From Anaerofustis stercorihominis DSM 17244 (GTDB taxonomy: Bacteria; Bacillota; Clostridia; Eubacteriales; Anaerofustaceae), in assembly GCF_000154825.1 (NCBI RefSeq), contig NZ_DS560015.1:25052-89051 (forward strand): 64,000 bases of DNA. The letters are read 5' to 3'. This document shows, in pieces, positions 50,997-52,704 of this stretch. A program made the translations under genes and the position numbers. The notes beneath the pieces are model-generated. The model made no database searches. It was not told where the DNA came from and saw only the letters and a list, made by a program, of their open reading frames with translations. The number at the start of each line of letters is the position of its first letter. The stretch's first letter is position 1.

Positions 50997-51026
50997 AAAA
51001 AGAGATAGGTCATTCTATCTCTTTTT
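50997..51026. terminator. Bidirectional terminator between the RND and MATE genes
   Basis: AAAAAGAGATAG / CTATCTCTTTTT, a perfect 12-bp stem with a 6-nt loop, between two convergent genes; it overlaps the MATE stop codon. Confidence 0.88.
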
Positions 51027-52362
51027 CTTTTGCTTTATTTAACTTTATAAAATGCAGATAATAAATTATTCCAAATATTCCCGGTAATATTGGAGAGAGA
51101 AATTCTGCTATATATATACCTATATATCCTAGATTAAAATAGTGTATCAATATAATGCTGAAAAGTATCCTTATTATAACAGACTGCAGAATCGAATTAA
51201 GCATTGCAATAAAAGAATCTCCAAGCCCGGTCATAAAAGAGTCTAATGTATACATTATCCCATAAGCCACAAAGTTTATGGAACAGCATATCCTAAGGTA
51301 TATTATACCTTCCTTTATTATATTTATATCTTTGTTAAATAGTTCTATTATTTCATATGAAAATATTTGTATCAATACTATGAGTAAAAAGGAACTTATA
51401 AGCGTATAAATTATTCCTGCTTTGACCGTTTTTTTTACATTTATTATTTTTTCTGCTCCAATATTTTGTGAAACAATGGTAGTTACACTTTGACCGATAG
51501 CCCAGCACGGCATTGCTGCAAAAGAATTTATTTTAAGTCCTATTCCCGCAGCAGAAGTGATTTCAAGTCCGTAACCGTTGAGTATTTTTGTAATTATTAA
51601 ATATGATACATTTAATATTGTCATTTGAACGGCACATGGAAAACCTATCTTTATTATTTTTATTGCTTTATCTTTCTTTATGTATAAGTTAGTTATTTTT
51701 AATTTATATATAAAGTCGTGTTTATTAAGATAAATAATGGAAATTATAAAAGATACTGCTTGCGATATTATTGTAGCATATGCTGCTCCGTTTACGCCAA
51801 TATGCAGTAATCCTATTAATATATAATCCAGGATTATATTTACTATTGAGGCTATAAAAACAAATGTAAGAGGGCTTTTAGAGTCACCAAGTCCCTTTAT
51901 TACAGAGGTAGCAGCATTATATCCAAATATGAAAATAATTCCAAAAGATATTATTTTCATATAACTGTTTGCATATTGTAAAGAACCTGATGGCAGGTTC
52001 ATGAAAATAAATATTTTTTTATATATAATTAAACTTATTAAAGTTACGATTAAAGCGAATATCATTGAAATAGAAAATAGTGTAGATATAGTATCTTTTA
52101 TTTTATTTCCATTGTTTTCACCTTTATATTTAGAAACCAGAACGCTTCCTCCCATGGTTATTCCCATACAAATGGAAGTAATTATAAAAGTTATCATCAC
52201 TGCACTATTTAAAGCTGCAATACCTTTTCCTCCCACAAATCTACCCACAAATATCATATCCACTATTCCGTAAACGGATTGGAGCATATTTGCTATAAAA
52301 ATTGGAAAGGCAAATTTTATAAGTGTTTTATTTATATTTCCTTTTGTTAAATCTTCGCTCAT
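51010..52362 (-). CDS. MATE family efflux transporter
   Basis: 450 residues from ATG at 52362, set by the AAGGAG site ahead of MSEDLTKGNIN; the longer frame starting upstream would read through the leader terminator and is rejected. Twelve membrane helices in two six-helix halves, with VDMIFVGRFVGGKGIAALNSA near the first helices typical of DinF/NorM-type MATE proteins. It exports cationic or amphipathic drugs by sodium or proton exchange. Its 5' leader (52386-52624) holds a leader ORF and a complete set of mutually exclusive stems ending in an intrinsic terminator, so expression is almost certainly controlled by attenuation. Confidence 0.92.
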   Translation of the reverse strand: MSEDLTKGNINKTLIKFAFPIFIANMLQSVYGIVDMIFVGRFVGGKGIAALNSAVMITFIITSICMGITMGGSVLVSKYKGENNGNKIKDTISTLFSISMIFALIVTLISLIIYKKIFIFMNLPSGSLQYANSYMKIISFGIIFIFGYNAATSVIKGLGDSKSPLTFVFIASIVNIILDYILIGLLHIGVNGAAYATIISQAVSFIISIIYLNKHDFIYKLKITNLYIKKDKAIKIIKIGFPCAVQMTILNVSYLIITKILNGYGLEITSAAGIGLKINSFAAMPCWAIGQSVTTIVSQNIGAEKIINVKKTVKAGIIYTLISSFLLIVLIQIFSYEIIELFNKDINIIKEGIIYLRICCSINFVAYGIMYTLDSFMTGLGDSFIAMLNSILQSVIIRILFSIILIHYFNLGYIGIYIAEFLSPILPGIFGIIYYLHFIKLNKAKEKEIE

Positions 52363-52385: not shown

Positions 52386-52413
52386 AAAAAAGATCTGTAA
52401 AAAACAGACCTTT
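52386..52413 (-). terminator. Attenuator terminator in the MATE leader
   Basis: Minus strand: AAAGGTCTGT / ACAGATCTTT with one wobble pair, a 5-nt loop and TTT(TTT). It lies 24 nt before the MATE start, upstream of its ribosome site. Confidence 0.85.
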
Positions 52414-52522
52414 TGTTTTTAATAATACAAAAGGCCATAGATAAAACATTATCCATAGCCTTTGATTTTTTATTTATATTAAAATAAGTATTTCATAATA
52501 ATTATGAAAGAACGTCAAAATA

Positions 52523-52600
52523 TTAACTTATCTTTTCGGCTTCGTATAATGTTTTATCCAAACTTACTCTATACGAAGCATTGCTTATGCAAAGTTTCAT
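52523..52600 (-). CDS. Leader peptide of the MATE attenuator
   Basis: 25 codons, start ATG at 52600 with CGGAGAAG ahead, stop TAA at 52525-52523. The peptide begins MKLCISNASYRV and ends LYEAEKIS. Codons 8-11 cover segment 1 of the attenuator and codons 18-21 cover segment 2, so translation itself decides which stems form. No run of regulatory codons of one amino acid is present, so control is more likely through drug-induced stalling than through amino-acid supply. It lies 24 nt after the predicted transcription start. Confidence 0.8.
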   Translation of the reverse strand: MKLCISNASYRVSLDKTLYEAEKIS

Positions 52601-52630
52601 TTTTCTTCTCCGAATTTATAATATAAAGTG

Positions 52631-52659
52631 ATTATAGTATATTGGGGTTATATTGTCAA
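52631..52659 (-). promoter_or_regulatory. Promoter of the MATE transcript
   Basis: Minus strand: TTGACA (52659-52654), 17-bp spacer, TATAAT (52636-52631): a perfect consensus promoter. Constant strong initiation joined to conditional termination is what an attenuator needs. Confidence 0.9.
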
Positions 52660-52666
52660 TTAAGTA

Positions 52667-52697
52667 AATAAAAAACGCCTTATAGGCGTTTTTTATT
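52667..52697 (-). terminator. Terminator of the SorC regulator gene
   Basis: AATAAAAAACGCCT / AGGCGTTTTTTATT, a perfect 14-bp stem with a 3-nt loop, 8 nt after the stop codon, separating the regulator from the MATE promoter. Confidence 0.88.
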
Positions 52698-52704
52698 TGA
52701 TATT

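Follow-up and report, generated by a model that had tools for sequence, protein, structure and literature searches.

Attenuators that act through a leader peptide on a drug-resistance gene are already known from bmrCD (PMC4191407), vmlR (PMC9226507), hflXr (PMC6310831), msrD (PMC10314930), and cplR (PMC10201436). In Bacillus subtilis, the leader peptide gene bmrB and a terminator precede the genes of a multidrug pump, and read-through into bmrCD answers ribosome-targeting drugs (PMC4191407). In leaders of the ermK/ermD type, as in those of vmlR (PMC9226507), hflXr/rli80 (PMC6310831), and msrD (PMC10314930), a ribosome stalled by a drug on a short ORF shifts the pairing of the stems in favor of transcription. 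The clostridial ABC-F gene cplR of Clostridioides difficile (CDIF630_02847) is under uORF-dependent attenuation of the same kind; its uORF reads Met-Arg-Ile, and its leader is induced by retapamulin and lincomycin (PMC10201436). A further RNA, uup RNA (Rfam RF03060), is a hairpin listed upstream of Uup-type genes, in C. difficile at CD3359 rather than at cplR, for which a 2024 review reports no further evidence of riboswitch function (PMC11477304).

We analyzed a 64-kb stretch of Anaerofustis stercorihominis DNA (the window), in which a short ORF and a series of RNA hairpins precede a gene for a MATE family efflux transporter. This region is very probably a ribosome-mediated transcription attenuator, one that responds to the stalling of the leader ribosome by a ribosome-targeting drug, and a divergent relative of the uup-RNA leaders. 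The computed part of this reading consists of the anatomy, its conservation, covariation and homology, and the association with MATE and ABC-F genes. As in attenuators of the ermK, bmrCD, and vmlR kind, the ORF overlaps the first alternative stem, and the terminator and antiterminator pairings are mutually exclusive. The resemblance to bmrB-bmrCD, in a leader peptide and a terminator before a multidrug pump, is one of architecture; bmrCD is an ABC transporter and not a MATE protein, and the bmrB terminator lies inside its leader ORF, whereas both terminators of the window lie downstream of theirs. The ermK/ermD-type, vmlR, hflXr, and msrD leaders, although similar in mechanism to what we propose, serve other genes and use RLR or other arrest motifs, not the K-[LF]-C-I found here. 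Our literature search, in which subscription journals fell largely outside the scope, found no report on this leader, on a MATE gene controlled by a drug-sensing leader peptide, or on an attenuator role of uup RNA.

The leaders of tet(M), tet(S), and tet(O) also place a short ORF and a terminator before a drug-resistance gene. We rejected them as relatives: the records fetched encode MRQGILK upstream and have no core in common with the window leader. On plasmids, the leaders of tet(M), tet(O/32/O), and tet(S) (L079, L080, and L081) share this seven-codon ORF and a common downstream part, and the ORF is separate from the leader peptide annotated beside tet(M) in the record.

Anatomy and folding of the MATE leader

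The promoter, ORF, RNA segments, and MATE gene all lie on the minus strand of the window and are listed here in the direction of transcription.

52631..52659, minus strand: sigma-70-type promoter TTGACA-17-TATAAT, 12/12 match to the consensus
52611-52608, minus strand: ribosome site GGAG of the leader ORF, 7 nt 5' of the ATG
52523..52600, minus strand: leader ORF of 25 codons, translated as MKLCISNASYRVSLDKTLYEAEKIS, with the homologue MKLCIIYASYKLSFDKTLYEAKNKRFLK in the same-genus genome G001
52586..52597, minus strand: codons 2-5, KLCI, putative stall motif, proposed from codon-position entropy in relatives
52570..52579, minus strand: segment 1 (GCTTCGTATA), pairs with segment 2
52538..52558, minus strand: segment 2 (GATAAAACATTATACGAAGCC), pairs with segment 1 or 3
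52440..52463, minus strand: segment 3, pairs with segment 2 (antiterminator) or 4
52427..52444, minus strand: segment 4, pairs with segment 3 or 5
52463-52430, minus strand: hairpin 3:4, terminator-like
52404..52416, minus strand: segment 5, pairs with segment 4 or 6; the 5:4 pairing is ACAAAAGGTC with GGCCTTTTGT
segments 4 and 5, minus strand: 4:5 helix, second antiterminator
52388..52398, minus strand: segment 6, pairs with segment 5
52414-52388, minus strand: hairpin 5:6 with U-tract, last intrinsic terminator ahead of the MATE gene
52375-52370, minus strand: ribosome site AAGGAG of the MATE gene, ahead of the start at 52362
51010..52362, minus strand: MATE family efflux transporter, 450 aa; TIGR00797 matE 226 bits (cut-off 147.4), Pfam MatE

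We place the MATE start at 52362; a longer mechanical ORF starting at 52449 was rejected, as it reads through the terminator. The initial annotation of this DNA had described a perfect consensus promoter, a 25-codon ORF that has a good ribosome site and contains segments 1 and 2, and a chain of pairings (1:2, 2:3, 3:4, 4:5, and 5:6) whose last member is an intrinsic terminator just before the MATE start. All of these elements are found at the coordinates above. Its terminator scheme needs one correction, in that hairpin 3:4 is terminator-like as well and is the sole terminator in G001; U-rich tracts follow both 3:4 and 5:6 in the window. Promoters of the TTGACA/TATAAT type also lie directly upstream of several other leaders.

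Between the upstream LsrR/DeoR-type regulator gene and the leader promoter, the window contains a strong, nearly symmetrical terminator hairpin of 16 pairs (52665-52699). G001 has no equivalent, and its leader directly follows the regulator gene.

The free leader folds into 1:2, 3:4, and 5:6 with -60.4 kcal/mol, against -35.7 +/- 4.0 kcal/mol for shuffled leaders, none of which was as stable (0 of 200; z = -6.2). The competing 4:5 helix reaches -14.0 kcal/mol, compared to a shuffled mean of -4.9 kcal/mol (p = 0.005). When segment 1 is masked, the minimum-energy fold becomes 2:3 in an RNA ending at segment 3 and 2:3 plus 4:5 in one ending at segment 5, as expected of the alternative structures drawn in the initial annotation. 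In the finished RNA with segment 1 masked, the antiterminated fold (-42.2 kcal/mol) falls short of the terminated one (-45.0 kcal/mol) by 2.8 kcal/mol, so that read-through depends on the order of folding, that is, on a kinetic switch. Transcription attenuators in general switch kinetically.

A ribosome that passes through segments 1 and 2, or that does not load at all, would make segment 2 unavailable either way; 3:4 and 5:6 would then form, and transcription would end before the MATE gene. A drug that stalls the ribosome at K-L-C-I (codons 2-5) would instead leave segment 1 covered. Segments 2 and 3, and subsequently 4 and 5, could then pair, neither terminator would form, and the pump gene would be transcribed. 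This switch, put forward in outline in the initial annotation, is supported by the masked folding, by the covariation of 1:2 and 3:4, by the conservation of 2:3, and by the spacing of the peptide motif.

Conservation of the stems and of the leader peptide

Two same-genus genomes were searched, and one of them, G001, carries the leader at the corresponding position, flanked by the same regulator gene and the MATE orthologue, with 78% DNA identity to the window over positions 56-231 of the query. Its segments 1 and 2 are identical to those of the window, and the peptide, the 1:2 hairpin, the 2:3 complementarity, and 3:4 are kept. Hairpin 5:6 is absent, and a U-rich tract directly follows 3:4. 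Since 3:4 is the terminator there, 1:2, 2:3, and 3:4 form the core of the switch and 4:5/5:6 a second stage. The G001 MATE orthologue itself (L002:38-1417, minus strand) has a frameshift in the assembly, from either a pseudogene or an assembly error, with the leader intact.

A scan with the MATE protein, taking one genome per species, yielded 61 loci, nearly all from Bacillota, with MATE homologues of mostly 44-52% identity. The segment-2 motif is present at 55 of them, in about 54 at the leader position; among the six loci that lack it, L050 and L066 have less than 240 nt upstream and L063 and L069 hold partial matches. Distant leaders have an ORF such as MLFGKFCIDFGSTQVYTTKHCAEPFRKVDL some 290 nt 5' of the MATE gene, usually with two terminators. 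The 2:3 pairing joins two sequences that hardly vary, segment 2 (AAACATTRTRCGRAGCC) and, complementary to it, the loop of 3:4 (AATGTTTT).

We aligned 37 distinct cores, cut and anchored by us around the three segments (alignment A1). The 1:2 and 3:4 helices pair in 95.3% of cells, a share that this anchoring biases towards structure, and changes on both sides, a count less affected by it, occur at 14 of 23 pairs compared to 6.6 in shuffles (0 of 500); every slid version of the pairing remained below 50%. The 2:3 helix pairs in 97.5% of cells, a figure subject to the same bias, with both-side changes at three pairs, among them a G-C to A-U change limited to the window and G001; further pair types are no more frequent than in shuffles. 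Its modest covariation follows from a sequence that barely varies. Among the 34 loci for which a simple finder reported a second hairpin, the 4:5 helix exceeds chance in only 14. Further matched changes are visible by eye in relatives whose hairpins differ in size and which the A1 counts leave out, for example AAGCGTT with GCGCTT in L120. The initial annotation had made its proposal depend on conservation of the ORF and stems in relatives; the leader is indeed conserved, and the expected covariation is clear for 1:2 and 3:4 and modest for the almost completely conserved 2:3.

A segment-2-type pattern identified three true leaders in 391 genomes of the class (the window, G001, and G136), and the exact pattern identified one in viral contigs (L074); eight further matches in the class genomes and the other six in viral contigs were attributed to chance. 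The plasmid and phage collections returned either nothing or weak partial matches to the leader over less than one-quarter of the query, and the MATE protein had no match in plasmids at E 1e-60.

In a large group of leaders reading MLFGKFCI (L028, L040, and similar), an extra terminator-like hairpin, CCAAGGCAG..CTGTCTTTGG then TTTTT, lies between segments 2 and 3, about 150 nt before the MATE gene; it is absent from the window and is possibly a pause site or a third terminator. A divergent MATE gene with the leader MNALGKFCIEASFGDVYVR (L057) occurs in a Victivallales (Lentisphaerota) metagenome bin, reflecting either transfer beyond Bacillota or a binning error.

The peptide was examined in 33 distinct MATE leaders, anchored on segment 1 rather than on the motif. 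They read [KR]-[LFVM]-[CGTA]-I just 5' of segment 1, followed by two free codons. By codon position, the entropy of the motif is 0.51/0.16/1.08 bits, compared to 1.16/1.54/1.54 bits for the next two codons, and the K-[LF]-C-I motif of distant leaders changes mostly at third codon positions. This pattern indicates protein-level selection that stops immediately 5' of segment 1. What is conserved in segment 2, by contrast, is the RNA: its translation is K-H-C-A-E-P in most leaders but K-T-L-Y-E-A, from a different frame, in the window and G001, and the ORFs of L041, L057, and L094 end before it or at its start. The spacing of the motif to segment 1 is nearly constant, and in the window the Ile codon begins 9 nt 5' of segment 1. 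A ribosome with a codon in its P site reaches about 15 nt downstream. If the Ile codon occupied that site, most of segment 1 would be covered and segment 2 would be left free.

A motif that contains a Cys and, among the aligned MATE leaders, a constant Ile codon might also belong to an amino-acid attenuator, in which lack of charged tRNA for Cys or Ile would stall the ribosome with no antibiotic needed. The composition of the peptides makes this quite improbable, since the window peptide has one Cys and two Ile codons and no run or cluster for a single amino acid, and the Cys position is elsewhere also G, T, or A. Moreover, several ABC-F leaders of the same RNA family do without K-[LF]-C-I, so that the stall signal is not uniform, and the genes downstream encode drug pumps and ribosome-protection-like proteins rather than biosynthetic enzymes.

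Relation to uup RNA

In several MATE leaders (L024, L015, L023, L115, L116, L120, L121, and L123), the 1:2 hairpin scores above the gathering cut-off (36.8 bits) of RF03060, whose model covers 48 positions around the hairpin. The window leader gives no match to RF03060 at E up to 10 and, lying below the threshold, is not a member by Rfam's rule; we therefore built our own models from the relatives. Models R1 (1:2; 33 relatives) and R2 (3:4) were made without the window or G001. Their best matches in the 64 kb are at 52591-52536 for R1 (E = 3.6e-5) and at 52462-52425 for R2 (50.2 bits; E = 3.8e-10), the E-values being rough, and R1 gave no match at the MATE paralogues sampled in the genus. These matches argue that the window leader is homologous to the uup-RNA leaders and thus not isolated, whereas the initial annotation had known of no described leader with this peptide.

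The window leader and uup RNA share the position of the 1:2 hairpin, a AAACATTGT..GGAGC core, the downstream 3:4 hairpin, and the 2:3 complementarity. They differ in that the window leader has GCTTCGTATA/TATACGAAGC where uup RNA has GCTCC../..GGAGC, that its segment 2 is translated in a different frame, and that the gene under its control is a MATE gene; RF03060, moreover, models a hairpin and not a leader-peptide attenuator. The downstream gene of the window is not of the Uup or ABC-F type, but uup RNAs above the cut-off elsewhere also precede MATE genes. Several weak matches to RF03060 or R1 (L100, L113, L124-L126, and L165-L167) were rejected on reading. The window's own genome contains a canonical uup RNA (46.3 bits with RF03060) at G000:C4:133137-133189 on the minus strand (L094/L155), with the leader MNFYKTDKIVRKLGSVQMKR, before an ABC-F gene.

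The listing of uup RNA among riboswitch-like motifs (PMC11477304), together with the strongly conserved nucleotides of 1:2, raises the question of whether the RNA itself senses a small molecule, the ORF being incidental. We regard this as very unlikely. The codon-position signal in K-F-C-I lies just where a stalled ribosome would cover segment 1; the review that lists uup RNA is itself the source of the statement on riboswitch function cited above (PMC11477304); the leader of the window matches no Rfam riboswitch, including the guanidine/ykkC riboswitch known for MATE genes; and it consists of simple stems only.

Genes downstream of the leaders

For all true leaders that were read and whose downstream gene was legible, this gene is of the ABC-F or the MATE type. 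ABC-F leaders occur in the window's own genome (L094), in G002, in the genera g13 and g15, and at L118, L122, L147, and L148. Their ABC-F proteins, cut by the locus ends, have NF000355 (ribosomal-protection-like ABC-F) as the best NCBIfam match, the truncated sequences scoring below its cut-off. Both the window's genome and G043 combine MATE-type and ABC-F-type leaders. In the MATE tree, 29 leader-bearing proteins group in a single clade (98/98), in which those of the window and G001 branch off first; the other MATE genes of the genus fall outside it, with no leader match at their loci. A second MATE lineage, which adjoins MepA in NCBIfam (L115 and L116), carries the leader independently. The initial annotation had considered a MATE transporter under such control unusual; in this clade, nearly every member has the leader.

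The association with ABC-F genes and with pumps, together with the K-L-C-I motif, points to a ribosome-acting drug. In the attenuator that we favor, the agent that stalls the leader ribosome and induces the pump would be a ribosome-targeting, probably 50S-binding, drug. The occurrence of one leader family before MATE and ABC-F genes also suggests a function for the orphan uup RNA. We think it likely that, rather than being a riboswitch, uup RNA is the first hairpin (an anti-antiterminator) of a widespread leader-peptide attenuator that senses drugs. This module would have become attached to ABC-F genes and, at least twice, to separate MATE lineages, and a single genome could use one sensor to turn on both ribosome protection and drug export; the window would hold a divergent form missed by Rfam, with K-L-C-I as its arrest motif. 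An orphan RNA motif would thus probably gain a concrete function that can be tested, and export would be linked to ribosome protection. This reading further suggests that ribosome-targeting drugs can induce the MATE pumps of gut- and animal-associated Bacillota, including those of Enterococcus and the C. difficile lineage CD160, and it implies that the substrates of leader-bearing MATE pumps include such a drug.

Neither covarying alternative pairings, nor conservation at the level of the peptide, nor retention over the whole MATE clade would be expected if the ORF were a remnant and the two terminator-like hairpins were tandem weak terminators that lower MATE expression and sense nothing; such constitutive attenuation is therefore as improbable as a riboswitch. 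Least probable of all is translational attenuation of the ermC type, which many drug leaders use and which C. difficile cplR combines with transcriptional control (PMC10201436), because the MATE ribosome site that the switch would have to hide or expose lies outside 5:6 and because U-rich tracts stand behind both hairpins. Each of these four alternatives, amino-acid control included, is less well supported than a drug-induced transcription attenuator.

In L101, L105, and L160, which are ABC-F leaders of genus g13, an insertion of about 150 nt, bounded by inverted ends (GTACCGACCAATTGTTA... / ...ACAATTGTCGGTAC), lies between segments 2 and 3. The insertion resembles a small mobile element inside the attenuator and is absent from the close relatives L102 and L107.
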